From contig NZ_PVTD01000007.1 in the NCBI RefSeq assembly GCF_003003255.1, positions 1 to 64,000 of the forward strand: DNA of 64,000 bases, given 5' to 3'. A program made the position numbers and the translations under genes. Below, one piece after another: positions 19,381 to 34,833 of the stretch. Within the stretch, counting starts at the first letter, position 1. Each line of letters opens with the position of its first letter. Under the pieces are notes generated by a model. It worked only from the letters and a program-made list of their open reading frames with translations, had not been told where the DNA came from and made no database searches. The stretch is from Aliiruegeria haliotis. Its GTDB lineage: Bacteria; Pseudomonadota; Alphaproteobacteria; Rhodobacterales; Rhodobacteraceae.

Positions 19381-19649
19381 AGTTCGAAAGGGCCTGCGTG
19401 GGCAGACACCGGAGTTCAACGACGCCTGCTTGAAGCCCGGTGTCGTTTCTGACCCTCCGGCATGGCGGTTTGCCCCGCCGGAGTGGTGGCGACCGGACGA
19501 AAGTGCTGTTCAAGCCAGCACCCGAAGTCCGGCGCCCGATGCCCATTTGGTCTTTCCACCGGCCCACGGCTGGGCCCGGGCATCGTCGTGGCCGACAACG
19601 CCCGGACCAGCAATTGCCTGCGACGAGACCGAAGGCCTCGGACAGCCCG

Positions 19650-22004
19650 TCAGTGGGCGCCCAGATCCGCCTTTGTGCGGGCGGCAACGGCCAGCGCCTG
19701 AATCGGGCGCAGGTCGATCCAACCAGCTTTCTGCATCCCCTTGATTGCAGGACTTTTTTCGAGCGCGGCTTCCAGTGTCGCAGCCGGAGCCGCGATCCGA
19801 ACCGAAAGGCGCACTGGCTCATGAATGGCGCGATCCCCAAGAATTGTGCTCTGGACCGACGGGCCGCCGCGCAGCGCGCCGGAGGTGCCCTCCAGGATAC
19901 CGAAGCCGCCAGCCACGTTGTGCAGCAGCTTGTTGCCACTGCCGAAGGCCTGCGGAGTCACGGTCGCACCGTAGTACTGGAGGTTGATCCAGGCCGCGAC
20001 ACACACTGGGCCACCAAGGATCTGCGCCAGCCAACTGCCATCAGGGTCCTGCGCTGCATCGTAGTCGTGCAGGAACGCCTTGCCTCCAAGGTTCCGGCCG
20101 ATGGTCGCCGATCGCGGTGCGGCGACGAACCAGCTGCACCCGGCAAGGCCCCATTCAACGCGGGTCTGCGCCCAGTCCATGCCGCGCCGAAGCAGGTCCT
20201 CCGGGTCCGGCTGCCCGGGCAGCGCGCGTGCCCGCTCTGTGCGCACAGCGTCGCCTGCCCGCGCGAGCGAGACTTCAAGCTGCTTCACGGACGGCCTGTA
20301 CCGCTCGCCGAAGTAGTCCTTGTTGAAGATGGTCACCCGGTCGGCGGCCGTGTCGTGGACTGCTGCCCGGAACACGGTCTCCGCCGGAATCTCGATCCCG
20401 CGGGCGACCAGCGACTTGCGCACGGGCGTTTCATTGAGCAGTTGCGCCAGCGCCCGCGCATTTGTTGCCCCGCTGTGCCCACCACAGGCACCGCACTGGA
20501 GCAGGCCCGCCTGGGCATCGTTCTTCACATGCGCTTCGTGGCCGACGAAAACGACCATCGGCGCGAAATCCTGCGTCAAACCCATCGTGCGAAGGGCGGC
20601 TTCGGCGGCATCCGCCGCTTCGGGGGCTGTTGCTGCGAATGCCAGTTTCGGGGCCGGTCCATGGGCCTCCTCGGGCGGCAATGGCTCGGTGGATTCAGTG
20701 AACAACTTGCCGATGCGCAGTGGGCCAGCAGCCTCGACGAAGGCAAAGCTCGACACAGCCGCCCGCGAGAAGCGGGAGACGGCCCGCGCTGCCCGCCCGC
20801 GAATGCGCCGCAGCGCTTCATCTGCACGGACCTCGCGGGAATCGTGCTCAGGCTTGAGCAGAACGGGCGCGTGGCTATCGGATTCGTTGGACGCCGCAGG
20901 ACGGTGTTTCAGGGTGAGGCCAAAGAACCCGGCGACACCATGGGTCCGGATGTCCGGTGCGGCCTCTTCGAGCACGCGCCGAAAGCGCTCAGAGCGGACG
21001 TCGATGCAGAACACCAGCTGTGCGGAGACTTCGGAGGCCGCGTCGACGGTCGTGTCGTCGGCCAGCAACCCGTCAAGCCGCCGCCCCGACGCAACCTCGG
21101 CCGCGCGCAGCAGGATCGCGTCGATCAGGTCGTCCGTGCCCGGCGTGACGGGCTGGCGATGCCTTTGGCAGGCCTCTCCCCATCTCTCGGCGACGGCTGT
21201 CCCAAGGTGCGCATAGAGCGCCTGTTCCCAGACCAGCCGGATAACCAGCAGTTCGCACAGGGTCGTATCACTGTCGCCTGACAGCTCTGCCTCCCAGGAC
21301 AGATGGCGGGCATGCCCCGACCAGCCGCCAAGGTCCCAGAGCAACCGACGGAACACCGCCGGAGCCGTTGCCGCGTCGATCCCGAGCGCCTTGCAAGCCT
21401 CGCCCAGGGCGCGCCAGGGGTTGCGATCGGTTTGGCTGACCAGTTCCGCAAAGCCAGAGCAGCCGAGGATCTCCGGCGTGAGGTCATGCGTGGCCCAGTC
21501 CCGCCAGTCCGCCCAAGCGCTCGGACGAGGCGCCCTGCCCCACAGCGCCTGTCCCCGGTCAAAGAAGCTCTGGGCCCAGGCGCCGATACGCTCGGTCACG
21601 ATCCCAGGCCAATCCCTGCCCGTGGCCGCCGCCGCCAGATCGGCAACGGTTGGGGTCGCCACCGGAGCGGGCCGTGCGTCGTCGAGGGCCGCGCGTACCG
21701 CTGACGGGGTCAACCCGGCCTCCGGCGCGGTTTCGGCGATGGCGCGCTCGATATCCGCTTCGGTGATCGAACCCCGTGCGACGCGTTGCGCATGGTGAGC
21801 GCGGTCCGGGAAGATGCGCAGACCGGCGGCGCGTTCCAACCGGGCGGCAACCAGGGCGATCGGCACGTCCGACTGGCCGTGGAAGGGATTGACCGCGACA
21901 GCCCGATCGAGCGGAAAGAGCGGCGCCATTTCGCGGGCTGCATCCTCTGCTGTTGCTGCAAAATCAACGACGTCCGGGGTGAAGTCCTCGTGATTGATGA
22001 ACAT
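19650..22004 (-). CDS. dabA: DabA (DUF2309), inorganic carbon uptake subunit
   Basis: A 784-residue cytoplasmic, carbonic-anhydrase-like subunit of the DAB dissolved-inorganic-carbon accumulation complex. Zinc-site regions are visible: LVFCIDVRSERFR around residue 330 (Cys and Asp ligands) and LLQCGACGGHSGATNARAL around residue 510 (His and Cys). The N-terminal AVNPFHGQSD is also typical. It starts one base after the dabB stop codon, so the two are co-translated. Known DabAB pairs couple bicarbonate or CO2 uptake to an ion gradient. In a heterotroph this may feed carboxylation reactions or pH control. No carboxysome or RuBisCO gene is in the window. Confidence 0.9.
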   Translation of the reverse strand: MFINHEDFTPDVVDFAATAEDAAREMAPLFPLDRAVAVNPFHGQSDVPIALVAARLERAAGLRIFPDRAHHAQRVARGSITEADIERAIAETAPEAGLTPSAVRAALDDARPAPVATPTVADLAAAATGRDWPGIVTERIGAWAQSFFDRGQALWGRAPRPSAWADWRDWATHDLTPEILGCSGFAELVSQTDRNPWRALGEACKALGIDAATAPAVFRRLLWDLGGWSGHARHLSWEAELSGDSDTTLCELLVIRLVWEQALYAHLGTAVAERWGEACQRHRQPVTPGTDDLIDAILLRAAEVASGRRLDGLLADDTTVDAASEVSAQLVFCIDVRSERFRRVLEEAAPDIRTHGVAGFFGLTLKHRPAASNESDSHAPVLLKPEHDSREVRADEALRRIRGRAARAVSRFSRAAVSSFAFVEAAGPLRIGKLFTESTEPLPPEEAHGPAPKLAFAATAPEAADAAEAALRTMGLTQDFAPMVVFVGHEAHVKNDAQAGLLQCGACGGHSGATNARALAQLLNETPVRKSLVARGIEIPAETVFRAAVHDTAADRVTIFNKDYFGERYRPSVKQLEVSLARAGDAVRTERARALPGQPDPEDLLRRGMDWAQTRVEWGLAGCSWFVAAPRSATIGRNLGGKAFLHDYDAAQDPDGSWLAQILGGPVCVAAWINLQYYGATVTPQAFGSGNKLLHNVAGGFGILEGTSGALRGGPSVQSTILGDRAIHEPVRLSVRIAAPAATLEAALEKSPAIKGMQKAGWIDLRPIQALAVAARTKADLGAH

Positions 22005-22005
22005 C

Positions 22006-23595
22006 TCAGATCTCCTTGACGGGCTGCGGGGCGGTGGCGGTCGGGACGGGCGCGGTGGCCCATGATCCCACCAGCCGGTCGGTGAACGCGCTCAGGTAGA
22101 GGCCGTTGGCCAGGTGGATGCGCAATCCGCGTGCAGCCGGATGTGCCGACCAGACCGGCAACAGGGCCTGCACCACGGCCAATGTGCCAAAACTCACGAG
22201 CGTGAGCGTGATGAGCGCCCATTCCAGCGGTCCGGCAACCGGCGTAGGCGGCAGCGCGCCCTGCGTCACGGCATTGGCGACCCACTGGAACGTGAAATAG
22301 CCAGCGGCAAAGAGTGCAGAGGCACGCGCCGTCGTCACACCCAGCGCCCGCGGCGCCTCGTCGGCAAGGCCCTGCGCCACCAGGTAGGCAATGCCCGTGA
22401 CCAGAATGGCGCCAAGCGCAACCGCCTGCGGCGATTTCTCGACAAGTCCGAGTGGCAGGCCCACCGCGACGTAGATCGCGAGTGCAATGCTCATTGCGCG
22501 GGCCACCGCCCGCCCGCCCGGGATGGCCACCGGGCCGAGACGACGGGCCGATTGCACGGCCTTGGCGGCATCGGCTGCGGTGAGGAAGGCATGCGACTTG
22601 TAGAGCGCGTGCGCGACAATGTGCAGAAGCGCAAGCGCGAAGAGCCCGAAGCCGCATTGGAGCACCATGAAGCCCATCTGAGAAACCGTCGACCATGCCA
22701 GCGCCGTCTTTGCGGCCGGTTGGGTCAGCATGACGATCGCACCGATCAACGCGGAGAAACCGCCGATCATCACCAGCGCAGCAAGAACGGCAGGCGCGCC
22801 CAGCAGGACGTCGGCGAACCGGATGAGGAGAAATCCGCCGGCATTGACGACACCGGCATGCAACAACGCGGACACCGGCGTCGGGGCTTCCATGACCTCG
22901 GTCAGCCAGCCATGTGCGGGCAGGAGCGCGGATTTCAGGATTGCTGCCGACGCGAGAAAGACCGTCGCGACGATGGCGGGAAGAGGCACCGTGCCGCTGC
23001 GCGCCGCATCCGTGATGGCGGCAATGTCCGAGGTGCCGTAGGCAAACACCAGCAGACCGGCCGCAGCAAGGAGCGCGGCGTCGGCACAGCGGGCGACGAG
23101 CCTCTTCTTCTGCGCGGCGCGACGGGCGCCGGGGCGCTCGGGATAGAACAGCAGCAACCGGTTCACGCCAAAGCCCGTCAACACCCAGCCGACAACCAGC
23201 TGCGCAAGATGCCCTGCGGACACAAGCAGCATGACACCGGCAAGCGTGACGCTCAGCCAGACGGTGAAGCGCGCCTCGCCGGGTTCGCCGTGCAGATGCG
23301 TGGCCGAGAACCGCAGGATGACCCAGGCCAACCCGCTTGTCAGCAGCATCATCACGACCGAGACGACGTCGAGCCGCACGGAAAGCCCCACCTCGCCGAT
23401 CCCGAGCACCGGTGAGGTAACAGGACCTGTATAGGGAAGCGCCGCGGCGGCGATGGCGGACAGGCCAAATGCCAGCAATGCGCCGCGCTCCGGTCCACGC
23501 GGCGGACGTTTGGGAATACCGGTTTCAAGGGACCGTACTGCGCCAGCGGACAACACAGCCAGCGGGGCGAGCAGAAGCGTGAGGGCGGCAATCAA
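22006..23595 (-). CDS. dabB: DabB, NuoL/MrpD-like membrane subunit of the DAB complex
   Basis: A 529-residue membrane protein of the proton-conducting antiporter family with about 13-14 hydrophobic segments. Family features include the lysine in ILKSALLPAHGWLTEVMEAPTPVSALLHAG and the LAWSTVSQMGFMVLQCG segment. The long open frame upstream lacks a good ATG; TTG at 23595 follows GGAGAAGGAG and gives MIAALTLLLAPL. It anchors and energises DabA. It faces the LysR gene across 99 bases. Confidence 0.88.
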   Translation of the reverse strand: MIAALTLLLAPLAVLSAGAVRSLETGIPKRPPRGPERGALLAFGLSAIAAAALPYTGPVTSPVLGIGEVGLSVRLDVVSVVMMLLTSGLAWVILRFSATHLHGEPGEARFTVWLSVTLAGVMLLVSAGHLAQLVVGWVLTGFGVNRLLLFYPERPGARRAAQKKRLVARCADAALLAAAGLLVFAYGTSDIAAITDAARSGTVPLPAIVATVFLASAAILKSALLPAHGWLTEVMEAPTPVSALLHAGVVNAGGFLLIRFADVLLGAPAVLAALVMIGGFSALIGAIVMLTQPAAKTALAWSTVSQMGFMVLQCGFGLFALALLHIVAHALYKSHAFLTAADAAKAVQSARRLGPVAIPGGRAVARAMSIALAIYVAVGLPLGLVEKSPQAVALGAILVTGIAYLVAQGLADEAPRALGVTTARASALFAAGYFTFQWVANAVTQGALPPTPVAGPLEWALITLTLVSFGTLAVVQALLPVWSAHPAARGLRIHLANGLYLSAFTDRLVGSWATAPVPTATAPQPVKEI

Positions 23596-23694
23596 GGGTC
23601 GATCTCCTTCTCCGTGGGTTCCGATGGATATGGTGGACGTCGAGCCGAATAAAAAATACAATGATTGGGATGAAACGTTCTATTCAGGTGAACG

Positions 23695-24564
23695 ATGGTC
23701 AGTCTCAACTACAACCACCTGCGCTACTTCCATGCCGTCGCACATGAGGGGAACCTGACGCGCGCGGCGGAACGATTGAACCTGTCGCAATCCGCACTCT
23801 CGACCCAGATCCGGGCGCTGGAGGCGCGGCTTGGACATGACCTCTTCGAGCGGCGGGGACGCGCGCTGCATCTGACCGAAGCAGGCCGGATCGCACTGGA
23901 GCACGCCGATGCGATCTTTGCTGCCGGACGGGACCTCGTCGACACGCTGGGGCAAACCGGGCAGGTACGGCGCGCCTTTCGGGTTGGCGCCGAAGCCACG
24001 CTGTCCCGAAATTTCCAGATGCGCTTTCTCGCGCCGCTCGTGGGGCGGGACGACACCGATCTCGTCCTCCGCTCCGGTCGACTGGGCGAGCTGCTCGAAG
24101 GGCTGCGCGCCCATGCGCTCGACGTGGTCCTTGCCACGACGCCACCTCCCGACGATGCAATTGGCCGGCTGGAGGCGCACCTGCTGTCGGAACAGGCAGT
24201 GTCCATCGTTGGCGCGGCGGAGCGCATGTCAGGCTCGCTCGCCGAGGTCCTGACTCGGGAGCCGGTTATCCTCCCCGCGCGAGGGTTCGAGATGCGGACG
24301 GGGTTCGACGCGCTGGCCAGCCGATTGGATGTGCGCTGCGAGGTCGCCGCCGAGATCGAGGATATGGCGATGATGCGGCTGATGGTTCGCGCGGACATGG
24401 GTGTCGCGCTGGTGCCGCCCGTTGTCGTCGCCGACGAACTCGCATCGGGAAGGCTGGTGGAACACGGCGAAACCACCGGCCTGACGGAACGCTTCTGGGC
24501 CGTGACCTATCCACGGCGCTTCCCCAACCCGCTGGTCCGGCAGCTGATCGATGCAAATCTGTGA
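23695..24564 (+). CDS. LysR-family regulator (NhaR-like)
   Basis: A 289-residue LysR-type regulator with the N-terminal helix-turn-helix (LNYNHLRYFHAVAHEGNLTRAAERLNLSQSALS) and a substrate-binding domain. The HLRYFHAVAxEG opening is typical of NhaR-like proteins, which respond to sodium or pH. It is divergent from dabBA and its stop codon abuts the stop of the last Mrp-like gene with no gap. Control of dabBA, perhaps by ions or CO2/bicarbonate, is inferred from position. Confidence 0.87.
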   Translation: MVSLNYNHLRYFHAVAHEGNLTRAAERLNLSQSALSTQIRALEARLGHDLFERRGRALHLTEAGRIALEHADAIFAAGRDLVDTLGQTGQVRRAFRVGAEATLSRNFQMRFLAPLVGRDDTDLVLRSGRLGELLEGLRAHALDVVLATTPPPDDAIGRLEAHLLSEQAVSIVGAAERMSGSLAEVLTREPVILPARGFEMRTGFDALASRLDVRCEVAAEIEDMAMMRLMVRADMGVALVPPVVVADELASGRLVEHGETTGLTERFWAVTYPRRFPNPLVRQLIDANL

Positions 24565-26274
24565 TCATGGCGTCGTCGCGACGGTCCGATCGCCGGTCAA
24601 CTCTCCGGTGGGGGCGTCGGGCAACAGGGCGAGAAACGTGAGCGCGGCCGTCATGCCAAGGATCGCCAGCGAACCGCTCTCCGGTCGCACCAGCCGGGTG
24701 CGCGCGCGGCGCAGCACAAGCCCCCGGTTGCGGCTGCGCGGCAGGCGCGGAGGCGGCAGGGCGAGCACGGGTTCGGGCGCCGTCTGTTGCCGCAACAGGC
24801 CCAGGATTTCCCCCGGTGCAGGCGGTTCGACGCGAAGGGAGGAAACACGGCAAAGGACCATTGCACACAGTCCGAGACCCACAGCCAGAGCGACCGGCAG
24901 GACGTCTGGCAGTTTCACCACACCGGCATCGACGAAGGGAAGCGGCGCGGCGGAGAAACCGATGCCCACGAACAGGAGCAGCGCCAGCCAGGGAAAGACG
25001 ACATCTTGTGGAACGTCCGGCTTCGGGGCGGTAGAGGCAAGTAGCGTCAGGGCGCGCATCATCAGCAGTGCCGTGCCGAGACTGGCACAGAACAACGCCA
25101 GTCCAAGCCACACGGCCCAGCCTTCAGGCGCCGCGGCGAACGCGGATTTGAGAGCTTCCTTCGCCTTGAAACCACCGGTCCCCGGCATTCCGGCCAGGGC
25201 CAGCGCCGGAAGACACAGCGCCAGGATGATTGCGGGTCGGGACACGCCTCGGGACGACGCCCAGACGGCGGGCACGCCCAGAAACAGCGCGGCCTTGGCG
25301 AATGCGTGGGCGGTTGCGAGCAGGATCAGGGCAGCGGCGACAAACGGCCAGCTTTCCGGGGCAGCCAGGGCAACCGCGAGGCCAAGCGCCATGAGGCTCA
25401 TCTGCCCGATGCTGGAATAGGCCAGCGTCGCCTTTGCGTCCGCTTGTACCAGTCCGAGAACCGGCGCAAGAATCAGGCCGGCAAGCGCCATCGCCGCCAG
25501 AGCTGTCGCGGCAGCCGGCGAGGCGGTTTCTCCAAGCGGCAGTATGATCATCAGGCCGAAGAGGCCGGCTTTCAGCATCGCGCCAGAGAGCACCGCGCTC
25601 GCCGGAGCCGGTGCCGCCGAATGCGCGAGCGGCAGCCAGAGATGCAGTGGCACCGCACCGAGTTTCACCAGCAACCCGCCGGCGGCGAGCGCAATGGCCA
25701 GGGGGGGCACGCCATCGGACGCCATTGCCGGGAGCGCCATGCTGCCCGTGAAATAGGCTCCGATCGCCAGGCCCGCGAAAAGCGCGACCTCTCCGGCAAC
25801 GGCAAAGGTGATGTACACCCTTCCGGCGAAACGCTGCGGTGCCCCGCCCCCATGCAGGACAAGCCCCCAGGAGGCGAGGCTCATCATGGAGAAGAAGCTG
25901 TAGAAAGACGCCATGTCCTGCGCGACCAGAAGACCGAAATTGCCCGTCATCGCGAGGAGGAAACACCCGAAGAAGCGGTCACGATGCCGGTCGTCGGCGA
26001 GAAGCCGCAGCGCCTGCCACCCCGCGAACCCCCAGAGCAGCGACGAGAAAAAGAGGAATGCGGCACCGGTATCGGAGAGAGAGAACTCGCTTCCGAGGAG
26101 CAGCCATTCGAGACGAACCGACAGTGGTCCGGGTGTCGCTGTCGCGGTAAGGAGCGCCGGTAACGCGGCCAGCGGCACCAGGTTTCGCGCCACGCCACGC
26201 ATGGACGGCAGCACGAAAGCCAACAGCAGAACCAGGGGAGCGGCGGGGACGAGCCAGAGCGGGATAGCGATCAT
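24565..26274 (-). CDS. MrpD/NuoM-type proton-conducting membrane subunit (third copy)
   Basis: A 569-residue membrane protein of the proton-conducting family. It has the conserved LLVKLGAVPLHLWLPLAHSA with its lysine, the loop APASAVLSGAMLKAGLFG and KATLAYSSIGQMSLMALG. It carries a basic C-terminal tail (PRLPRSRNRGLVLRRARTR) before one final hydrophobic segment. The ATG at 26274 overlaps the preceding gene by four bases. It is the last of eight genes. It is longer than the two other MrpD-like proteins and closer in feel to HyfB/NuoL-type subunits. Confidence 0.82.
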   Translation of the reverse strand: MIAIPLWLVPAAPLVLLLAFVLPSMRGVARNLVPLAALPALLTATATPGPLSVRLEWLLLGSEFSLSDTGAAFLFFSSLLWGFAGWQALRLLADDRHRDRFFGCFLLAMTGNFGLLVAQDMASFYSFFSMMSLASWGLVLHGGGAPQRFAGRVYITFAVAGEVALFAGLAIGAYFTGSMALPAMASDGVPPLAIALAAGGLLVKLGAVPLHLWLPLAHSAAPAPASAVLSGAMLKAGLFGLMIILPLGETASPAAATALAAMALAGLILAPVLGLVQADAKATLAYSSIGQMSLMALGLAVALAAPESWPFVAAALILLATAHAFAKAALFLGVPAVWASSRGVSRPAIILALCLPALALAGMPGTGGFKAKEALKSAFAAAPEGWAVWLGLALFCASLGTALLMMRALTLLASTAPKPDVPQDVVFPWLALLLFVGIGFSAAPLPFVDAGVVKLPDVLPVALAVGLGLCAMVLCRVSSLRVEPPAPGEILGLLRQQTAPEPVLALPPPRLPRSRNRGLVLRRARTRLVRPESGSLAILGMTAALTFLALLPDAPTGELTGDRTVATTP

Positions 26275-27743
26275 AGGTACTCCAGGGAAACGATGAAACG
26301 GGTCCAGCCAAGGGGGCTGAAAGGGGCGCTCGCCATCAATCCGGCGACGAGCACGAGCGCTGCGGTGGTGGCAGGTGGCACAGCCAGCATCCAGCCGATG
26401 CGCCGGGAGGCCTTGGCGCCCTCCGTCGGCGCACAGAACCATCCACGATAGAGGATCGGCAGGAAGTAGGCGGCGTTGAGCAGGCTGGATCCGGCCAGCA
26501 ATGCAATAACCATCGGCTGCCCGGCATCGAGCCCCCCGGCACCGAGGTACCACTTGCTCACGAAACCGGCGAGCGGCGGGACGCCGATCATGCCGAGCGC
26601 GCCGATCGTGAAGGCGAGCATCGCGCCGGGCATGCGCTGGCCCATGCCGTCCATGGCCCGCACGGTCTTGACCCCCTGCCCTTCGGCGAAATTGCCAGCG
26701 GCGAGGAAGAGCGTGATCTTCATGATCCCCTGGTGCACGAGGTGCGCAAGGCCACCGATTGCAGCCACCGGCGAGATCAGCGCGACACCAAGCGTGATGT
26801 AGCTCACCTGGCTGACGGTGGAATAGGCAAGGCGTTTCTTCAGGTCATCTTGCGTCAGGGCGCGGAACGACCCCCAGAGGATCGTGACCGCGGCGAGCGC
26901 CGCGAGCGGCATCGCGAGCCCCATCGCCTGCAGGGTTTCGACGCCAAAGACGTCGTAGACGATGCGCATGATGCCAAACGCGCCGGCCTTCACCACTGCG
27001 ACAGCGTGCAGAAGCGCGCTGACGGGCGCCGGTGCGACCATGGACAACGGCAGCCAGCCGTGAAGCGGCACCAGCGCGGCCTTTACACCCACGCCCGCGA
27101 TCAGCAGCACGAAAATGGCGGTGAGCGCCAGCGGCGCCGTTTCCGGCAGATCCCCCAGCACACCGCGCGGGACGAAAGGCACCTCGCCGGCCAGCGCGTA
27201 GAGCCAGATCGTTCCCAGCGTCAGCGCCAACCCGCCGCCCAGCGTGTAGACGAGGTAGATCCGGCCAGCCCGATGCGCCTCTGACGTGCCGCGGTGCACG
27301 ACCAGGGGCCATGTCGCAAGGGTCAGAAGTTCGAAGAAAACGAGGAAGGTGAAGAGGTTGCCTGCCATCGCGATGCCGACCGTCGAGGCCACGCACAGAG
27401 AGAAAAAGCCAAAGAACCGGCTCCGGTCCGTGCCACCCTCAAGATAGCCCACAGCGTAGATCGTGGTCAGCAACCAGAGGATCGACGACAGCGCCAGAAA
27501 CAGAACCGCAAGCGGGTCGGCCTGCAGGTGCAGCTCCAGTCCCGGTGCGATGCTGTGCCGGAGGTCGAAGCTGTTGCCGCGCGTCACCTCAAAGGAAAGC
27601 CAGACAACCAGCGCGACCTTGACCGTCGCCGCGGCGAGGTTGACCCCGGTGCGCAGGCGCCGGGCACTCTCCGGCATCACGAGGATGATCGGCACGATAC
27701 CGAGCGATGTCATCAGGATAGCAAGAGGAAGGTATTGGCTCAT
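26271..27743 (-). CDS. mnhD: MrpD-type cation/proton antiporter subunit (second copy)
   Basis: A 490-residue membrane protein with MrpD/NuoN features: GVGVKAALVPLHGWLPLSM with the conserved lysine, APVSALLHAVAVVKAG, KKRLAYSTVSQVSYITLG and the LVHQGIMKITLFLAAG helix. The ATG at 27743 overlaps the upstream paralogue's stop by four bases. The call as antiporter or proton channel is firm at family level. Confidence 0.86.
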   Translation of the reverse strand: MSQYLPLAILMTSLGIVPIILVMPESARRLRTGVNLAAATVKVALVVWLSFEVTRGNSFDLRHSIAPGLELHLQADPLAVLFLALSSILWLLTTIYAVGYLEGGTDRSRFFGFFSLCVASTVGIAMAGNLFTFLVFFELLTLATWPLVVHRGTSEAHRAGRIYLVYTLGGGLALTLGTIWLYALAGEVPFVPRGVLGDLPETAPLALTAIFVLLIAGVGVKAALVPLHGWLPLSMVAPAPVSALLHAVAVVKAGAFGIMRIVYDVFGVETLQAMGLAMPLAALAAVTILWGSFRALTQDDLKKRLAYSTVSQVSYITLGVALISPVAAIGGLAHLVHQGIMKITLFLAAGNFAEGQGVKTVRAMDGMGQRMPGAMLAFTIGALGMIGVPPLAGFVSKWYLGAGGLDAGQPMVIALLAGSSLLNAAYFLPILYRGWFCAPTEGAKASRRIGWMLAVPPATTAALVLVAGLMASAPFSPLGWTRFIVSLEYL

Positions 27744-29149
27744 GCGAATGGCACCTCGAGAAGGGTAAGTGGAAGCGCAGCGGCGAGGCCGAGGAGCAGT
27801 GCCCCCGTGGCCAGTCCGAGCGCCGCGACGTCGCCGCTGCGCCATGGCAGACGCTGGGCGGTGGCAGAGACATGTGGCCCGCCACGCAGGCATCGGGACA
27901 CGACCCGCGACAGATAGGCAGCCGACAGGGCGGTCCCCAGCAGGAGGAGTGCAATCCAGTGCACGGCACCCTCGTCGACAAGGCCCTCGATCAGGATCCA
28001 CTTGCCAATGAAGCCCGCGGTCGGCGGCAGTCCGACAAGGCTGATTGCGGCGATGGCAAAGGCGAATTCCGCAGCGCCCGGGCGCAGTTCCTCGCGGTTC
28101 AGCCCCGATATCCGGTCATGTCCGAGCGCCTCGGCGATCCGCCCGACGGCGAGAAACATGGCCGCCTTTGCAAGCGCATGGGACAGCATCAGGAGCGCCG
28201 CCGCCGTCCAGAGCCCGTTTTGCAGCGGGTCTCCGGCGACACCGATCGCCAACGCGATCAGGCCGATCTGGGCGACGGTGGAATGGGCGACCAGGAGCTT
28301 CAGGCGCTCCGCGCGCAGCGCGTTCCAGGCGCCCCAGAGCATGCCGCCCGTACCGAGCACGGCGAGGGCGCTGCGCAGGAACTCCGCACCGGCGCCACCT
28401 TCGATGGAGAGGCGCAGCGCGAGGTACAGCGCCCCCTTCACGACAAGTGCCGAGAGCAGCGCGCTGGCAACCGGCACCGCGCTCGAATGCGCCGCCGGCA
28501 TCCAGAAATGCAGCGGGAAGAGCGCGGCTTTCACCGCAAGGCCCGCAGCGATCAGAGCCAGCGCGATACGCCCGTTGCTGCTTTCGGTCAGGACAACCAC
28601 GGTTTCCAGGTCCACCCGACCCGTCACCGAATAGCTCAGGGCGATGCCGAGCAATATGAGCAGGCTGCCTGCTAGCCCCGCGGTCAGGTAGTCGAATGCG
28701 GCGCGCAGGGCCATCGGGGTCCCCGCGAGCGCCGTCAGGCCGACTGCGGCCAGACCGAGGATCTCGAAGGCGACGTAGAGGTTGAACAGGTCGCCCGAGA
28801 GGAACAGGCCATTGAGCGCCCCGAGCGTCGCCATCCACAGCGGCCAGAAACCGGCGCGCCCCGGCGTGGACATCGCCTGGGCGGTGATGGCGAGGCTGAC
28901 AATGGCCGTCATGGCGAGCATGACGGCGGCGAGGCCATCGCCGACAAAGGTGATCCCGAGCGGTGCGGCCCATCCGCCAATCACCTGCTCGACGGCGCCA
29001 CGCGCGATGATCTCGCGGCACAGGCTCACGACGAGCAAGGCATTTGCCGCAGTGGCGACCAGCCCGAGCGATGCGGCCCGGCCGGGCACCGCAACAGTAA
29101 GTGTCGCGGCGAGGAACGGCAGCAGGACAAGAAGCGACAGCTCACTCAT
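27740..29149 (-). CDS. mnhD: MrpD-type cation/proton antiporter subunit (first copy)
   Basis: A 469-residue membrane protein with LNGLFLSGDLFNLYVAFEI, the MrpD hallmark near residue 110, GLAVKAALFPLHFWMPAAHS with the conserved lysine, and KLLVAHSTVAQIGLIALA. The frame is open further upstream, but the ATG at 29149 gives the usual N-terminus and overlaps mnhC by eight bases. Of the three paralogues it is closest to canonical MrpD. Confidence 0.88.
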   Translation of the reverse strand: MSELSLLVLLPFLAATLTVAVPGRAASLGLVATAANALLVVSLCREIIARGAVEQVIGGWAAPLGITFVGDGLAAVMLAMTAIVSLAITAQAMSTPGRAGFWPLWMATLGALNGLFLSGDLFNLYVAFEILGLAAVGLTALAGTPMALRAAFDYLTAGLAGSLLILLGIALSYSVTGRVDLETVVVLTESSNGRIALALIAAGLAVKAALFPLHFWMPAAHSSAVPVASALLSALVVKGALYLALRLSIEGGAGAEFLRSALAVLGTGGMLWGAWNALRAERLKLLVAHSTVAQIGLIALAIGVAGDPLQNGLWTAAALLMLSHALAKAAMFLAVGRIAEALGHDRISGLNREELRPGAAEFAFAIAAISLVGLPPTAGFIGKWILIEGLVDEGAVHWIALLLLGTALSAAYLSRVVSRCLRGGPHVSATAQRLPWRSGDVAALGLATGALLLGLAAALPLTLLEVPFA

Positions 29150-29417
29150 CGCGATCCTCCGCGATACGCTCGGCCAGAGCCAGAAGCACGGCAGTGACGC
29201 CGACAAGCACCACGATTCCGGTCAGAACGAAGGCCTGGGGAACGGCATCGGTCCCGCTGGCGCCCATGCCGGACACGAGAAGCAACATCGCAATTCCGAC
29301 GGCAAGAACATTGAGCCCGAGAACGCGCATCAGCAGGTCTGCGCTGGTGGCGAGGCGAAGGAGGGCAAGACCGACGAGGCCGGCTCCGGTGGCGAGAAAG
29401 GCATATTCGGAAATCAT
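29142..29417 (-). CDS. mnhC: MrpC/MnhC-like (NuoK-like) antiporter subunit
   Basis: A 91-residue protein with three membrane segments, like MrpC and NuoK. The glutamate or equivalent buried acid of NuoK is not obvious, but the pattern LNVLAVGIAMLLL and VPQAFVLTGIVVLVGVTAVLLAL fits MrpC. The ATG at 29417 is one base past the mnhB stop; an in-frame ATG eight codons earlier would overlap mnhB. Confidence 0.8.
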   Translation of the reverse strand: MISEYAFLATGAGLVGLALLRLATSADLLMRVLGLNVLAVGIAMLLLVSGMGASGTDAVPQAFVLTGIVVLVGVTAVLLALAERIAEDRDE

Positions 29418-29418
29418 G

Positions 29419-30312
29419 TCAGTGTCTTTCAGCTGGTCCAAAGAAAAGGAGGAAGAGCGTTGCGGCGATGGACAGTGTCAGGGCGCTTTCGATGGCGATG
29501 ATCCAAGTCTTCGCCTCGCCCGCGGGGTAACCAAGCAACGCACCGGTCAGGACCTCGGCCGCCAGGGCCGCGAGCGCGAAGATTGCCAGCCCGGCGATGG
29601 CGAGCAGGGCCAATCCGTTCTGCCGCGTCAGCTTTGAGCCGATTACACCGCTCAGGCCGAGCGCGATCGCCCCACCCGCAAGCACGGCTCCCGCCTGGAA
29701 GGCTCCCCCCGGGGCATGCCCACCCTGCCAGAGAAGATGGCCACCGATCAGGACGGTGAGTGGCAGAAGAACACGCGCGAAGGGCTGCACCAACGGTCCG
29801 AGCGGCGCTGTGCGCGGGCGTGCCGGCGCCACCATGATGACCACCGTCAGCGCAACGAAGAGCACCGCGATTTCCAGCAGGGTGTCCCAGGCACGGAAGT
29901 TCAGCAGAACGGCCGTCACCGGGTTCTGGGCACCGCTCTCGGGCAGGTTGTCTGCGACGAGAGACGGATAGACCGGTGCCGCACCGAAGCTTGTCACGGT
30001 CCACACGATTGCACCGCTGATCGCGATGGCGAGCGCACCGGCGGCGCACCAGAGCGAAGGCGGCAGGGCCTTCGATGGCGCGCAGGGGATCCGGTGGGCA
30101 CTGCGCAGGAGCAATGCGCCGGTCAAGCCCGCGCCGATGGCGGCCTCGGCCAGGGCAACATCCGGCGCCCCCAGTCTCAGCCACGAAAGTGAAACCAGCA
30201 GACCGGTCACGAGGAACCCCGACACGGCCGCGATACGATCGCGCACCCACAGGGCAAGTGCGGCACTGACGAGGATGGCAGCGGCAAGCACGACGTCAAA
30301 GACAGGCAACAT
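29419..30312 (-). CDS. mnhB: Fused DUF4040 (MbhD/E-like) and MnhB-domain antiporter subunit
   Basis: A 297-residue membrane protein. The N-terminal part (LRLGAPDVALAEAAIGAGLTGALLL, near residues 50-75) is the DUF4040/MbhD domain, which in classical Mrp sits at the end of MrpA. The middle (LNFRAWDTLLEIAVLFVALT) matches the MbhE/MrpA C-terminal segment. The last third (LLWQGGHAPGGAFQAGAV) is the MnhB domain. So this gene carries the end of MrpA and all of MrpB, while the large NuoL-like N-terminal part of MrpA is absent. It overlaps mnhG by one base. Confidence 0.83.
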   Translation of the reverse strand: MLPVFDVVLAAAILVSAALALWVRDRIAAVSGFLVTGLLVSLSWLRLGAPDVALAEAAIGAGLTGALLLRSAHRIPCAPSKALPPSLWCAAGALAIAISGAIVWTVTSFGAAPVYPSLVADNLPESGAQNPVTAVLLNFRAWDTLLEIAVLFVALTVVIMVAPARPRTAPLGPLVQPFARVLLPLTVLIGGHLLWQGGHAPGGAFQAGAVLAGGAIALGLSGVIGSKLTRQNGLALLAIAGLAIFALAALAAEVLTGALLGYPAGEAKTWIIAIESALTLSIAATLFLLFFGPAERH

Positions 30313-30620
30313 CAGGCCCCCTCTTCGGCATCGGCCACGCTCGGGTTGAACTGATCGCGCGCAATTAGGTGCCCGGTCGTCGCACCGGATACCGCCACGA
30401 GCAACGTGCACAGGGCCAGGCTCAGCGTGGCGGCGACGTCCTGGACGTGAATGGCGGCGCCGATGGCAATCAGCGCGACACCGGCGGTGTCTGCCTTCGT
30501 CAGCACATGCAGCCGCGAGAGAAGATCGGGCAGGCGCCAGACACCGATCGCCGCAACGACCAGGAAGGCGGTGCCGGCAAGCATCATTGCCAGGCCGAGG
30601 GCTTCGACGAAGGCGGTCAT
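30312..30620 (-). CDS. mnhG: MrpG/MnhG-like antiporter subunit
   Basis: A 102-residue protein with three membrane segments and the MnhG core AIGVWRLPDLLSRLHVLTKADTAG near residues 25-48. It overlaps mnhF by four bases and mnhB by one. The C-terminal tail is polar and acidic. Confidence 0.87.
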   Translation of the reverse strand: MTAFVEALGLAMMLAGTAFLVVAAIGVWRLPDLLSRLHVLTKADTAGVALIAIGAAIHVQDVAATLSLALCTLLVAVSGATTGHLIARDQFNPSVADAEEGA

Positions 30621-30868
30621 GCGGTCCTCCGTCCGAGAGCGACGAAGGCAATGCCCGCGACAGCCGCGAGGGCCGAGAAGACGAGCGCGATGTCGAAAAA
30701 CGCGGGCGCCCGTTCGGCTGCGCCGAGCAGGAGCAGCGTTGCCACCGTGCCCGTTCCGGCCAGTTGCATCGCGAGTATCCGGTCCGCCGCGCTTCGCGCA
30801 CGGACAAGACGGGGCACGACGGCAACCGTCGCCAACAGTGTGATCAGGGCAAGGTACTCGGGGATCAT
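30617..30868 (-). CDS. mnhF: MrpF/MnhF-like antiporter subunit
   Basis: An 83-residue protein with three membrane segments; RARSAADRILAMQLAGTGTV matches the MnhF pattern in which an arginine and aspartate precede the second segment. The frame is open upstream to 31084 but the ATG at 30868 overlaps mnhE by four bases and gives the normal length. Confidence 0.86.
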   Translation of the reverse strand: MIPEYLALITLLATVAVVPRLVRARSAADRILAMQLAGTGTVATLLLLGAAERAPAFFDIALVFSALAAVAGIAFVALGRRTA

Positions 30869-31446
30869 GTATTCTCTCCTTTCAGGGAAAGACCGAAGAG
30901 GCCGGCAATACGATGCTCCAGCGCATCCAGATCGCCTTGGACGGCTTCGCCGCAGTCGAGCGCATGGACGACCAGCATTTCGCCATCCAGGCGCACGGTC
31001 AGCGTCCCGGGAAGCAGGGTGATCGTCAGGGCAAAAAGGCGGCGCGGCCGCCCTTCCGGAAGGCGGGTCCTGAGCGTCAGGCACCCCTGGTTGAGGCGGC
31101 CCGGACGCAGGCTCAGGAGACTGACGTCGACCGCGCCACGGAGCACGCCGGTAATCGCAAAGGCGGAAAGGCGCAGGGCGCCCGTGAAGGAAATTCGCGG
31201 CGAGTTCGATACCGGCAGCAGCGTCGAGGCCGCGGCACCCGCGACCGCGGTCGGCAGACCAATGACCCAGCTTGCCGGATCGTCCCAGTGCAGCACCGCC
31301 CAGGCCGCCGCCAGCATGACACCGGTGCCCAGTGCCGCACGCACTTTTCCGGTGGTCCGGTTGTCCCGGATCGGGGTCGTGTCGGGCACGATCGGGTGGT
31401 TGCCCTGCACGGCAACCACGCTCGCAAAGTCCTGTCGAACCTTCAT
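30865..31446 (-). CDS. mnhE: MrpE/MnhE-like antiporter subunit, first gene of the operon
   Basis: A 193-residue protein with an N-terminal soluble stretch, two or three membrane segments and the MnhE C-terminal domain (ALTITLLPGTLTVRLDGEMLVVHALDCGEAVQ). The N-terminus (to about residue 33) is longer and more polar than usual. It opens the operon mnhE-F-G-B-C-D-D-D. The GGGATGAAA-N13-CGTC motif at 31595-31623 could be its promoter. Confidence 0.84.
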   Translation of the reverse strand: MKVRQDFASVVAVQGNHPIVPDTTPIRDNRTTGKVRAALGTGVMLAAAWAVLHWDDPASWVIGLPTAVAGAAASTLLPVSNSPRISFTGALRLSAFAITGVLRGAVDVSLLSLRPGRLNQGCLTLRTRLPEGRPRRLFALTITLLPGTLTVRLDGEMLVVHALDCGEAVQGDLDALEHRIAGLFGLSLKGENT

Positions 31447-31594
31447 TGGATCTCCTTGGGCAGCGTCAAACGGCGCTGTACGAGGGATCCGACATCACAA
31501 CCGGCTGCCATTCGGTTGTCAGAGGGGCCCGGATCCGGGTCTCCTGTTCTGTTTCTGGGAAGATCCGGCGACAGATCGCCGGGCCTTTGGTTGA

Positions 31595-31623
31595 TAGACG
31601 CGCGAGGACGCCTTTTCATCCCT
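31595..31623 (-). promoter_or_regulatory. ECF-type promoter-like motif upstream of the Mrp operon
   Basis: On the minus strand AGGGATGAAA is followed after exactly 13 bases by CGTCTA. The same arrangement, with identical spacing, occurs upstream of the genes at 32087 and 33820. It lies just after the terminator at 31632-31667 and about 150 bases before mnhE. Confidence 0.55.
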
Positions 31624-31724: not shown

Positions 31725-32087
31725 TCAGGTCTCGTTCGTGCCTTCCGGCTCGTTGGAAACAAGGTCTGTCGCCATGTGGCGGATCGCGGCGATGGCGACG
31801 ATGGTGCCGAGCACCGGAAACGCCCAGGCCGATCCCGAGGGCATTTGCCAGGCAAAGACCGGCACGAGAATGGCGAGCGCACCGCCGCCGATCAGAAGCA
31901 GGTCATCGCCTTTGCCCGGCCGCCAGACAGCTTTCGAACCGAGTGCCATCAGCGTCACCCCGATGAGATGCGCCCCAACGGCCTTCTCCGGCGAAAAGCC
32001 GATGAAGTAGGGGAGCAGGAAGGCGACCGCACCGGCGACAAGCGCGACGAGGTGCGGCCTGTGGTCGGCGTGAAAAAGTCTGGACAT
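31725..32087 (-). CDS. Small four-helix membrane protein (SPW-repeat-like)
   Basis: A 120-residue protein with four hydrophobic segments and the stretch LLPYFIGFSPEKAVGAHLIG, which recalls SPW-repeat membrane proteins (SPWxxGFS, then a small-residue helix). Function unknown. The frame reads upstream, but the ATG at 32087 has a TCAGGAG ribosome site. A motif shared with two other promoters lies 66-94 bases upstream, suggesting control by the neighbouring ECF sigma factor. It has its own terminator. Confidence 0.65.
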   Translation of the reverse strand: MSRLFHADHRPHLVALVAGAVAFLLPYFIGFSPEKAVGAHLIGVTLMALGSKAVWRPGKGDDLLLIGGGALAILVPVFAWQMPSGSAWAFPVLGTIVAIAAIRHMATDLVSNEPEGTNET

Positions 32088-32152
32088 TGCGGTCTCCTGA
32101 AGCTGGACCTGCGCCGCACCGCGGCCGCTGCATGTACGTTGCTGATGACTGA

Positions 32153-32181
32153 AGAACGCTTTTCCCCGCGATTTCATCCCC
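32153..32181 (-). promoter_or_regulatory. ECF-type promoter-like motif upstream of the small membrane protein
   Basis: On the minus strand GGGGATGAAA is followed after 13 bases by CGTTCT, the same elements and spacing as at 33762 and 31595. The gene start is 66 bases downstream. Confidence 0.6.
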
Positions 32182-32332: not shown

Positions 32333-33121
32333 TCAGATCCTGCTCGAAAGGTCCATCGCGATCTTCTGGACCTCGGCGGTGTCGCCCTCGCCAACAAGCG
32401 CGAAGTCGACATCGGCGGTGCGCCAGTAGCCAACCGAACGGCTTGGATAATCAACGACCTTGACCGGACCGATAGGTTCCTTTTTCGGGTGCTGCGCGAG
32501 CGTCAGGGAGTATCGCGCACCCTCCCCGTCCTCATAGATATACTGCGCCAACGGGCCTTCCTTGGTGCCGAGCAGTCGCGCACCCACCAGTTCCACTCCA
32601 TAACCGCCGAGATCCGGCGCAGAGATTGGGACACCGATCTTGCCGGAGAACCAGTCTTCGACGCCATCCACGGCGGCCCCGGCAAACTCCACGGGATAGT
32701 CGGGATCTCCGGCAAAGACCTGGTGCGCGCCGACCGCTTCGGAAACATATTCCGGAACGCCGGATGTCGTGGTTGTGACCGTCGCATGCCCCCACCAGCC
32801 AAAGGCAAAGAGGGCGCATGCGGCGGCCACCTGCGCACCGGGCCGCAGCCAGCCGATGGCGGGCGTGGCGCGCCGGGGCGCAACGCGGCGAACGAGCCGG
32901 TCGGCAAGCTTGCGCTTGAGCCGTTCGGTCTGCATGTGGGCCGGCCCGGTGTCGAGCGCTTCCAGCGCTTCACCGAGCTGGAGATTTTGGCGGGACATTG
33001 CTTCGAACGCGGCGCGCACCTCCGGGTCGTCGGTCATGCGGGCCTCGAACTCGGCCGCTTCCTCCGGGCCGATTTCTCCGTCGATGTAAGCGTTCAAGGA
33101 CTCGTGGACTACGTTTGTCAT
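32333..33121 (-). CDS. Anti-sigma factor, membrane-anchored
   Basis: A 262-residue protein with an N-terminal helical anti-sigma domain (HESLNAYIDGEIGPEEAAEFEARM), one membrane segment near residues 95-112 (AQVAAACALFAFGWWG) and a periplasmic C-terminal domain. No zinc-binding HxxxCxxC is visible, so it is not a classical ZAS redox sensor. The YIDGEL-like start is typical of anti-sigma proteins paired with ECF factors. It follows the sigma gene by 13 bases and is probably co-transcribed with it. Confidence 0.82.
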   Translation of the reverse strand: MTNVVHESLNAYIDGEIGPEEAAEFEARMTDDPEVRAAFEAMSRQNLQLGEALEALDTGPAHMQTERLKRKLADRLVRRVAPRRATPAIGWLRPGAQVAAACALFAFGWWGHATVTTTTSGVPEYVSEAVGAHQVFAGDPDYPVEFAGAAVDGVEDWFSGKIGVPISAPDLGGYGVELVGARLLGTKEGPLAQYIYEDGEGARYSLTLAQHPKKEPIGPVKVVDYPSRSVGYWRTADVDFALVGEGDTAEVQKIAMDLSSRI

Positions 33122-33134
33122 TTCCTCAGCCTCC

Positions 33135-33644
33135 TCAAACGACCAGTTTCAGTCGTTTCGATTTCAAGCCGTCGATGATTTTCCGGAGCGCAACGCGGCC
33201 CCGCCCGAGACGGCTGTAGAATGTTCCAAGCGGCAGATCGAGCGTACGCGCGGCATCGGCATAGCTCATCTCCTTCAGCGCGACGAGAACGATGGGCTGC
33301 CGCTGCGCCTCTGGCAGTTCCTGGAGCGCATCCAGCACCTGCTGCAACTCGATCCGCTTGGTCGGGTCAGTGTCTTCAATCGGTTCCGGGATCATCAGGC
33401 GCGCATCCTCGCGGACCTTGTGACGACGCCTTTCACTCACGTGGGTGTTGTGCATTATCCGGAACAGCCAGACACGAAGGTCGCTGCCAGGTTGCCACTG
33501 GTCGGCCGCGGCAATCGCCTTGGTCAGCGTTTCCTGCACAAGATCTTCGGCTGCATCGCGATTACGTGTCAGCACCATCGCGTAGCGCCTCAGACTGGCG
33601 ACATACTCATCAAGGTTCCTTTCCAACTGGGCTCGCGCGTCCAT
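33135..33644 (-). CDS. ECF-family RNA polymerase sigma factor
   Basis: A 169-residue sigma-70-family protein with region 2 (RRYAMVLTRNRDAAEDLVQETLTKAI, LRVWLFRIMHNTH) and region 4 (LQELPEAQRQPIVLVALKEMSYADAARTLDLPLGTFYSRLGRGR). The ATG at 33644 has a CAGGAG site five bases upstream; another ATG at 33704 with GGAG would add 20 residues. Its cognate anti-sigma factor follows. It may read the GGGATGAAA-N13-CGT motifs nearby. It is not an obvious EcfG, since no NepR or PhyR gene is adjacent. Confidence 0.88.
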   Translation of the reverse strand: MDARAQLERNLDEYVASLRRYAMVLTRNRDAAEDLVQETLTKAIAAADQWQPGSDLRVWLFRIMHNTHVSERRRHKVREDARLMIPEPIEDTDPTKRIELQQVLDALQELPEAQRQPIVLVALKEMSYADAARTLDLPLGTFYSRLGRGRVALRKIIDGLKSKRLKLVV

Positions 33645-33761
33645 GTTCTCCTGTTCTCCTGCAATCGCTTCCTGTGTCACATACGTGTGAGCCCCCGGAT
33701 TCATCCCACTTTCTCCAATAAAAAATCACTCACGGCTTTGTGTGCCGTTGCGCGCGGCGGC

Positions 33762-33790
33762 GGGGATGAAAACGCTCGCTGTCGCGTATG
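33762..33790 (+). promoter_or_regulatory. ECF-type promoter-like motif upstream of the DUF2333 gene
   Basis: GGGGATGAAA, 13 bases, then CGTATG. The expected transcription start falls about 25 bases before the GTG at 33820. Two further copies with identical spacing lie upstream of 32087 and 31446 on the other strand. Confidence 0.62.
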
Positions 33791-33819
33791 TCGTGTGAAG
33801 CCACAAGGGAAAGAGCCCA

Positions 33820-34833
33820 GTGACCACCACGACAAGCGATACCACCGAAGCTCGCGGATCCGGGCTCGTGCCTGTTCCCGCAAGTCCGCAGACCGCGCGC
33901 TTGCGGGACAGGTCTCGTCGATCCTCCGTCCTGCGCGCCGCGCGATATATAGGGGTGGGCGTCTCGATCTGGGCCGTGGTTACCTACGGCATCCTCGGGC
34001 CGCTCAAGCACACGATCGTCACGGACCTGCCCGTCATTCCGTCGGAGGAAACAGCCGGCAGCGCGGCCGTCGCATCGGCTGCGGCGCTGATCCGCCGCGA
34101 ACTGGACGTGAATGGCTGGACCCCGAATGATCCGCCCATCGCGCCAGCCGCCGTGCTCGACAACATGCCAAATTTCCAGACCGGGGTGATCGAGGCGGTC
34201 GGAAGGTTCAGCTTTGAAATGCTCGACCAGATTGCACGCACGCGCGGGTCGTCGAGCGACGACCCGGACCTGGAGCGCGCGACCGGTTTTCTGCAGTTCC
34301 CGCCCGATATCTGGATCTGGGAACCGTCACGCTCGCTCCTGCCGTCGGTGTCGTCGGAAACCCAGTACCGGCAGGGCCTTGCGGCGCTTGAAAGATACAA
34401 TGCGCGCCTCGCGCGGGGGGACGCAGTCTTCGAGCAGCGCGCCGACACGCTGGCCGCAACCCTGTCCCGGATCTCTGCTGACCTCGGAGCCCAGACGGCG
34501 CAGCTCGAACGGGCCCAGGATACCGGGCGCTGGATCTTCAGCAGCCATGCCGACGACGTGTTCTATCACAACAAGGGCATGCTTCATGGCTATCACGTGC
34601 TTCTGTCGGGGCTCGGCTATGATTTCGACAGGATCATCCGCGAACGCAACCTCGGCCCGATTTGGAACCAGGTCCTCGACGGCCTTCAGCAGGGTGCCCA
34701 GTTGCGGCCACTCGTGGTGCTGAATGGTGACCGGGACCGGTCGATCTTTGCCAACCATCTTGCGCTGCAGGGCTTCTACATGAAGCGGGCAATCCTGCAG
34801 CTGGAAGAAGCGGTCAATGTCCTGGCCGTCTGA
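33820..34833 (+). CDS. DUF2333-family inner-membrane protein
   Basis: A 337-residue protein with one N-terminal membrane segment (AARYIGVGVSIWAVVTYGIL, near residues 40-59) and a large, probably periplasmic, helical domain. WIFSSHADDVFYHNKGMLHGYHVLL and the LQFPPDIWIWEPS stretch match the uncharacterised DUF2333 family as I know it. It starts with GTG after AAGGGAAAG. It is divergent from the sigma/anti-sigma pair and heads a three-gene unit. Function unknown; an envelope-stress role is inferred from position. Confidence 0.75.
   Translation: MTTTTSDTTEARGSGLVPVPASPQTARLRDRSRRSSVLRAARYIGVGVSIWAVVTYGILGPLKHTIVTDLPVIPSEETAGSAAVASAAALIRRELDVNGWTPNDPPIAPAAVLDNMPNFQTGVIEAVGRFSFEMLDQIARTRGSSSDDPDLERATGFLQFPPDIWIWEPSRSLLPSVSSETQYRQGLAALERYNARLARGDAVFEQRADTLAATLSRISADLGAQTAQLERAQDTGRWIFSSHADDVFYHNKGMLHGYHVLLSGLGYDFDRIIRERNLGPIWNQVLDGLQQGAQLRPLVVLNGDRDRSIFANHLALQGFYMKRAILQLEEAVNVLAV

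Follow-up and report, generated by a model that had tools for sequence, protein, structure and literature searches.

It is proposed that two separate and separately controlled membrane systems lie side by side in the window, the whole stretch of 64,000 nucleotides from Aliiruegeria haliotis to whose positions all coordinates below refer: a dabB-dabA pair with its LysR-type regulator gene (lysR), and an eight-gene operon (mnhE-F-G-B-C-D1-D2-D3) for an Mrp-like antiporter. We consider it probable that the two form no common complex, because each operon mostly occurs alone, a congener has lost dabBA, the controls of the two operons appear to differ and DabB groups apart from the antiporter subunits. 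The original prediction had placed all of these genes together and had suggested a joint DAB-Mrp complex. Every gene was recovered where it had been placed, with curated Pfam cut-offs exceeded by DabA, MnhE, MrpF, MnhG, MbhD/MbhE/MnhB, Oxidored_q2 and Proton_antipo_M. The joint complex found no support: the modules are mostly apart, and their co-occurrence, though enriched, is far from regular.

From mnhE (31446) to D3 (24565) the eight mnh genes follow one another at spacings of -8 to +1 bases, overlapping or directly abutting, consistent with a single operon. All eight were as predicted except that the gene first called mnhB encodes an MbhD-MbhE-MnhB fusion (hereafter the fusion protein). 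The lysR gene lies on the opposite strand, its 3' end base to base with that of D3 (24564/24565), and is divergent from dabB, the two starts being 99 bases apart; by its strand and its divergence lysR thus separates the dab pair from the antiporter operon.

Linkage was followed in 60 genomes, in 390 genomes of the order, in a phylum sample of 398 genomes and in 80 dab loci (the best 80 of 542 by DabB similarity). The window's own genome is G000, grouped with the Tropicimonas congeners G001 (T. marinistellae SF-16) and G003. DabA was found in 15 of the 60 genomes, G000 included, and the full arrangement in three of them, G000, G001 and G032, the last from another genus; the linkage is therefore not unique to the window. 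Within the order, DabA occurs in 123 of 390 genomes and the fusion protein (E<1e-38) at 16 places in 15 genomes. At three of these places dab lies within 20 kb on the same contig: the window, G418, where lysR lies 9 kb past D3 of the eight-gene operon, and G256 (L118, 6422-15371), where a remnant E-F-G-AB and an ATPase fragment are followed by lysR-dabB-dabA, C and D1-D3 being missing. At the other 13 places dab is on a different contig or absent, though some contigs are short and linkage there may be missed. Among the best 80 of 542 dab loci, 76 have lysR upstream of dabB and 1 has it downstream of dabA, and in 3 it was not detected; L038 alone lies next to an eight-gene operon, and L048 alone next to an ordinary Mrp operon. 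The original prediction had named unlinked operons in relatives, responding to unrelated conditions, as what would speak against it: unlinked they largely are, and as to conditions, the putative regulators differ.

The third Tropicimonas genome, G003, has all eight antiporter genes, of lysR only the last 58 residues, and dabBA are gone from the site; its only DabA lies on another contig with 45% identity to the window DabA. Judged by what remains in its sequence, G003 is a case of dabBA loss with the antiporter retained. In an antiporter-subunit tree (FastTree, supports not examined), D1 clusters with MrpD, D2 and D3 each make up a separate clade, and DabB stands apart from all three, beside MrpA.

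Promoter motif and terC RNA in the antiporter leader

The antiporter unit continues upstream of mnhE with genes for a small SPW-like membrane protein, an anti-sigma factor and an extracytoplasmic function (ECF) sigma factor (31.7-33.7 kb). A motif of GGATGAA, 14 bases and CGT was derived by eye from seven leaders of the sigma gene, the DUF2333 side and mnhE. The pattern GGATGAA-N14-CGTNNNT has 46 hits in six of the deriving genomes (reversed control, 2) and 7 hits in the window's own genome (reversed control, 0), four of which fall between 31594 and 33791, a span of 2.2 kb. When one mismatch is tolerated and the final T left out, the window holds 10 sites against 5.3 expected, a number reached by 4 of 100 shuffles; its four exact sites all lie in the antiporter/sigma unit. 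Elsewhere the motif lies within 700 bases upstream of mnhE in G001, G003, G032, G418, G294, the plasmid of Rhodobacteraceae SC52, G256, G080 and G374, and in G335 at the sigma gene only, so that the held-out loci (G256, G335, G080, G374) carry it at the sigma gene in 4 of 4 and at mnhE in 3 of 4. It is absent from twelve other eight-gene loci checked, in two of which (L127, L130) the upstream stretch is cut by the contig end. We read it as a putative autoregulated ECF promoter common to the sigma, SPW, DUF2333 and antiporter genes.

In the loci checked, neither dabB nor lysR is preceded by the motif, of which the 79 dab loci (1.43 Mb) yield a single hit, and ECF control of dab was rejected for lack of a motif before either gene. 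A half-site GGGATGAAAC before the window lysR, which G001 does not share, was discounted. We infer that dab answers to its own LysR gene, since the divergent lysR-dabB arrangement is conserved. The original prediction had called this regulator NhaR-like. It belongs to the LysR family and NhaR is its best NCBIfam model, but its score falls under the cut-off.

The motif was also seen in two clusters, L193 (G032:C2, 2814-9061) and L124 (G294, 14129-19901), whose genes, for DUF2333, a dynamin-like GTPase, a small zf-HC2 anti-sigma-like protein and an AAA ATPase, appear to extend the ECF regulon; the Pfam basis is the GTPase and ATPase of G294 and the small protein of G032, the latter under its cut-off.

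Between the ECF promoter motif and mnhE lies a terC RNA, a member of a curated Rfam family (RF03067). In a survey of 80 chosen genomes (19 with the eight-gene operon and 61 without; not a random sample), run with stricter Infernal filters that lose weak matches, the RNA was found in 12 of the 19 and 3 of the 61 (Fisher P 2.8e-7). The 19 sites (L194-L212) comprise 6 before mnhE, 5 before TerC, 3 before DUF475, 3 before a sodium/calcium exchanger, one of them with a 111-residue open reading frame (ORF) between RNA and exchanger gene, and 2 before Bax1-I; the SC52 plasmid provides a seventh antiporter leader with the RNA. The tie to the antiporter is weakened by the 7 of 19 eight-gene genomes without a hit and by 6 more in which the RNA lies away from the antiporter, indicating that it sits there in one subclade only. 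Outside the order, none was found in 11 loci scanned (4 + 7).

The two-helix structure is backed by covariation, mainly in helix 2. The model pairs 88.4% of cells over 20 sequences, compared with at most 42.4% in slid controls, and 41 cells show double changes against 16.7 in shuffled data, with none of 500 shuffles reaching 41; how many pairs carry double changes is unremarkable, 79 of 500 shuffles reaching as many. Double changes occur at 6 of 7 pairs of helix 2 and at 2 of 7 of P1. In predicted free folds, the ribosome site is hidden by a hairpin that includes the 3' strand of P1 in 6 of the 7 antiporter leaders, and folds with P1 imposed are 4.8 to 12.7 kcal/mol less stable; the window leader by itself exceeds its shuffles in stability only modestly (z -1.74). 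These models suggest that the antiporter leader may be a translational ON switch, in which formation of P1 on ligand binding would open the ribosome site.

The presence of the RNA before five kinds of membrane-transport or membrane-protein gene narrows the search for its ligand to ions or pH, and the mnhE leader with its ribosome-site hairpin offers a reporter for measuring the signal. In the open-licence literature we found, among the matches listed, nothing about the eight-gene operon and dab together, about its control or about a terC RNA before it, and from that literature it cannot be said whether the association of antiporter and terC RNA has already been published.

Weighing a functional link

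Several observations weigh against the two-system reading. The adjacency of dab and antiporter is kept in two genera at 72-83% DabB identity, and in Histidinibacterium lentulum (L048) an ordinary Mrp operon takes the same place and orientation beside dab. MnhE lies within 20 kb of DabA in 6 of the 123 DabA-bearing genomes (1.65 expected) and, leaving out the window, in 5 (1.63 expected, P 0.025) or, within 10 kb, in 3 (0.86 expected, P 0.057), and DabA is found in 11 of the 15 genomes with the fusion protein compared with 112 of the 375 without (P 0.0009); these P values ignore genome relatedness, which inflates them, and the expectations used one mean genome size and disregarded contig ends. 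Conserved adjacency, the Histidinibacterium operon, the 20-kb enrichment without the window and the co-occurrence point to some functional link between dab and antiporter. To these must be added that the regulators of both systems are deduced from sequence, that many terC RNAs do not form the outer pairs of P1 (12 of the 20 lack one particular outer pair) and that the predicted fold of the G418 leader leaves the ribosome site unhidden.

One alternative, which we place a little below an even chance and which is compatible with two separate systems, is that the eight-gene unit and the dab cassette are mobile cargo brought together by chance in one lineage. The eight-gene arrangement is found on plasmids of Rhodobacteraceae SC52, Aminobacter and Rhizobium; relatives of D2 occur on 6 plasmid records, of which 4 were inspected and showed no dab, and the closest, SC52, has the whole unit and no dab in the stretch viewed. 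In G003 two transposase genes flank the eight-gene unit (L154 253-960 and L155 14732-15439) and are identical at 672 of 708 bases; the one scanned is a DDE_Tnp_IS240, and a serine recombinase lies nearby. In G032 a phage-integrase gene adjoins the unit, and within the genus 4 of 9 genomes have DabA. Chance assembly fits less well with a gene order and orientation kept across two genera, with the Mrp-dab adjacency found elsewhere and with purifying selection on dabA (dN 0.22, dS 1.55 against T. marinistellae).

Also compatible with separate systems is a partnership without a complex, in which alkaline, sodium or low-CO2 stress calls for both because antiporter and DAB each acidify the cytoplasm; we regard it as possible, though hardly the expected outcome. 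It would account for the adjacency in two genera and beside an ordinary Mrp operon, and it agrees with the 20-kb enrichment and the co-occurrence, both nominal, with a LysR protein closest to NhaR among NCBIfam models though under the cut-off, and with the CO2 binding of DAB2 and its proposed hydration of CO2 driven by the proton motive force (PMC13144422). It is opposed by the rarity of the linkage overall, by the differing controls proposed for mnh and dab, and by P values inflated through relatedness.

A joint DAB-Mrp supercomplex in which DabB serves as the fourth proton channel is very improbable: adjacency and the PF00361 domain common to DabB and D1-D3 speak for it, but each module lacks the other in most genomes examined, and in the DAB2 structure TM12-14 of DabB (transmembrane helices 12-14) are displaced to accommodate the finger helices of DabA (PMC13144422), whose finger glutamate (E444 equivalent) is retained here.

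Under the preferred reading of two separate systems, envelope or ion stress would release the ECF sigma factor, which would transcribe its own operon, DUF2333, the SPW gene and the antiporter, the last forming the transport arm of a local stress unit under ECF-sigma control. The terC RNA would act as a second check, its P1 helix competing with the hairpin that masks the ribosome site and so gating mnhE translation. The antiporter would swap a cation for protons through D1 and D2, in which all the antiporter residues examined are present, D3 being a modified third unit. The LysR-controlled dabB-dabA pair, driven by the proton motive force, would hydrate CO2 and leave bicarbonate and a proton in the cytoplasm. 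Both would acidify the cytoplasm, a possible reason for staying together, and their neighbourhood would characterise the Tropicimonas lineage and one further genus, mobile elements having created or removed it. An ion or pH theme for the locus, as first suggested, is plausible. Our most far-reaching proposal, which we advance with considerable doubt, is that the terC RNA responds to cations or pH by switching translation on; its regulon would unite, in a single ion-homeostasis programme, the ECF-driven Mrp-like antiporter with its three antiporter-like subunits (the third lacking the TM5 glutamate) and TerC, DUF475, Na/Ca-exchanger and Bax-inhibitor-like proteins, and the DAB next to it, its CO2 tunnel remodelled, would be a variant tuned to acidify the cytoplasm under the same stress. 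A weak idea of a joint complex is in this way replaced by testable ones.

The original prediction had noted no autotrophy genes in the window; the RuBisCO large subunit has no match in the whole of G000 either, although 7 of the 9 genomes of the genus (G000 among the nine, G001 among the seven) have one; for want of RuBisCO in the genome, dab in G000 does not qualify as part of an autotroph's CO2-concentrating mechanism. The idea that DAB substitutes for carbonic anhydrase was rejected for the beta class (PF00484): this enzyme is present in 362 of 390 genomes, with one in G000, and is missing from 4 of 123 DabA-bearing compared with 24 of 267 DabA-less genomes, the opposite of what a swap would give.

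The antiporter and the dab module

The fusion protein joins the C-terminal piece of MrpA (MbhD and MbhE) to MrpB (MnhB). The B, C, D, E, F and G subunits typical of Mrp lie within one operon, and there is no single mrpA as in Mrp groups 1 and 2, the NuoL-like and MbhD/MbhE parts sitting on separate genes. Four proton-conducting subunits had been predicted, a claim that proved too strong: the glutamate of TM5 and the lysine of TM7 are present in 21 of 21 D1 and 21 of 21 D2 sequences, whereas D3 has A, S or T at that position in 21 of 21, with the TM7 lysine kept, and DabB likewise lacks the TM5 glutamate. With a conserved third subunit that has no TM5 glutamate, the antiporter represents a naturally occurring variation on the proton-channel module of complex I. 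Every NCBIfam model listed for a subunit (the best 25 for the large subunits) scores under its cut-off. Aphanothece (group 3) is described with two mrpD genes, and a calcium-moving Mrp is recorded in Thermomicrobium roseum (PMC5703873), so the ion moved by the window antiporter need not be sodium.

In the phylum sample, a D2 match at E<=1e-80 occurs in 31 of the 398 genomes, with identity of at least 56% in 13. Twelve of these regions were inspected: D1, D2 and D3 are neighbours in the 11 with D2 identity of at least 56%, only D2-like matches were seen in the remaining one (44%), and no dab was found in the 12. An arrangement resembling the eight-gene one occurs in Rubrobacter, with a different D order and mnhC not annotated. 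A GntR gene on the SC52 plasmid was considered as an ortholog of the window GntR, but the idea was dropped: the latter is PhnF, and the former matched a different regulator of the window, at 33% only.

DabA and DabB align with the chains of Halothiobacillus DAB2 (9rd0) across most of their length. By the Pfam cut-off, the active site and the proton path, the window dabBA belongs, as judged by homology, to the DAB/DAC family. Residues were numbered after the DAB2 paper (PMC13144422) and mapped through our own alignments to 9rd0; the DabAs of the three linked loci (window, T. marinistellae, G032) were compared with 83 others, two genomes being counted twice among the 83. Equivalents of the zinc ligands C351, H524 and C539 and of the D353-R355 dyad are kept in the linked trio and in 83 of 83 others. 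Equivalents of the DabB proton-path residues S256, H260, K310, S316, H339, H343 and K347 are kept too. The bottleneck of CO2 tunnel T1, which is not part of any published criterion for DAB/DAC membership, is not conserved: F375 is replaced by V, A and A (window, T. marinistellae, G032) and is F in 83 of 83 others, and all three have G in place of A703, which 81 of 83 others keep. V696, likewise of T1, has become W in the linked trio, G525 beside a zinc ligand is E, E and A, and A376, F378, P704, H684 and I700 are kept. All three linked loci differ at 29 of 233 conserved DabA columns and 12 of 153 DabB columns. They show which DAB tunnel residues can vary with the active-site residues intact.

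The three linked DabABs share a long branch inside those of the order in a FastTree tree of 86 loci and the window, whose supports were not examined and in which T. marinistellae was entered twice. The group next to them includes loci from owners of the eight-gene operon or its remnant (G080, G256, G418, G050; confirmed for G050), dab being unlinked to the operon in G080 and G050 and 9 kb away in G418. The AlphaFold model of DabA (pLDDT 81.3) was built from 35 sequences, and a fold search with it gave no match at E <0.001, 9rd0 being absent among the best 50 of 234 (library entries to 2026-04-08).

Table. Features of the antiporter and dab loci, with window positions and supporting evidence
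Feature	Position	Strand	Evidence
dabA	19650..22004	-	PF10070 712.5 bits (cut-off 25); 9rd0_A E 4.6e-125; active site intact, CO2-tunnel bottleneck altered
dabB	22006..23595	-	DabB2 chain 9rd0_B E 2.3e-68; proton-path residues kept
lysR, putative LysR-type regulator of the dab module	23695..24564	+	PF00126, PF03466; best NCBIfam NhaR 127.6 bits (cut-off 219)
D3, antiporter-like subunit without TM5 glutamate	24565..26274	-	PF00361; Glu replaced in 21/21 D3 sequences
D2, antiporter-like subunit	26271..27743	-	PF00361, PF00662; best NCBIfam NF005561 447 bits (cut-off 718, missed)
D1, MrpD-like antiporter subunit	27740..29149	-	PF00361; best solved-structure match MrpD chain 7qru_D; groups with MrpD
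mnhC	29142..29417	-	PF00420
'mnhB', MbhD-MbhE-MnhB fusion	29419..30312	-	PF13244, PF20501, PF04039
mnhG	30312..30620	-	PF03334
mnhF	30617..30868	-	PF04066
mnhE	30865..31446	-	PF01899 68.3 bits
Predicted hairpin, terC-RNA P1 3' strand with mnhE Shine-Dalgarno region	31448..31490	-	Minimum-free-energy folds; 6/7 leaders
terC RNA (Rfam RF03067), mnhE leader	31480..31540	-	58.2 bits (gathering score 39.9), E 1.7e-7; covariation
ECF-type promoter motif before mnhE	31594..31621	-	Nine other operons also have it <=700 bases before mnhE
Small SPW-domain-like membrane protein	31725..32087	-	PF03779 24.9 bits, under cut-off 31.5; homolog at same place in G294
ECF-type promoter motif before SPW-like gene	32152..32179	-	Exact pattern match
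Anti-sigma factor	32333..33121	-	zf-HC2 PF13490 just above cut-off; NCBIfam anti-sigma under cut-off
ECF sigma factor ORF	33135..33704	-	Pfam Sigma70_r2/r4_2 matches; probably begins at ~33644, the called start being overlapped by the promoter motif
ECF-type promoter motif before sigma gene	33679..33706	-	Likewise at sigma gene in G001, G003, G032, G418, G294, SC52, G256, G335, G080, G374
ECF-type promoter motif GGATGAA-N14-CGTNNNT, DUF2333 side	33764..33791	+	Exact pattern match
DUF2333 gene, divergent from sigma gene	33820..34833	+	PF10095 on 33955-34833 part; start from ORF list, chosen because the promoter motif lies just upstream

The window's own genome has one DabA, and a second MnhE is located elsewhere in it. 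Beside dabA, at 15010-19380, lie by eye a phnM-like amidohydrolase gene and a phnN-like kinase-like ORF, together with PhnF (TIGR02325 above cut-off); poorly coding stretches between the phn-like genes make this a possible remnant of a C-P lyase locus. At 55043-62877, gene calls judged by eye give membrane- or stress-type genes for a phospholipase-D-like protein, two small membrane proteins and an AI-2E-like permease.

Comparison with known systems

DAB and the LysR-dabB-dabA module are already known (PMC13144422; PMC5700660). With DAB2/DAC of Halothiobacillus (DabA2-DabB2, PDB 9rd0) the window proteins share homology over most of the length and the catalytic and proton-path residues; the linked trio differs in its long branch, the altered T1 bottleneck residues and the changed G525. 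With the clade A COGNAT LysR-nuoL-ybcC operons (PMC5700660) the common feature is a reverse-oriented LysR gene 5' of dabB-dabA; in the window, unlike these, an eight-gene antiporter operon lies directly past lysR.

The antiporter shares with Mrp (CPA3) groups 1-3 the B, C, D, E, F and G subunits and the MrpA C-terminal domain, but has a fused MbhD-MbhE-MnhB, three antiporter-like subunits and the order EFG(AB)CDDD, which groups 1-3 do not cover in the accessible part of the review (PMC5703873). The window RNA has in common with terC RNAs of RF03067 its sequence, its structure and its position before a gene; the gene after the window RNA, however, is not terC but the first of an Mrp-like antiporter operon, and an ECF-type promoter motif lies before the RNA.

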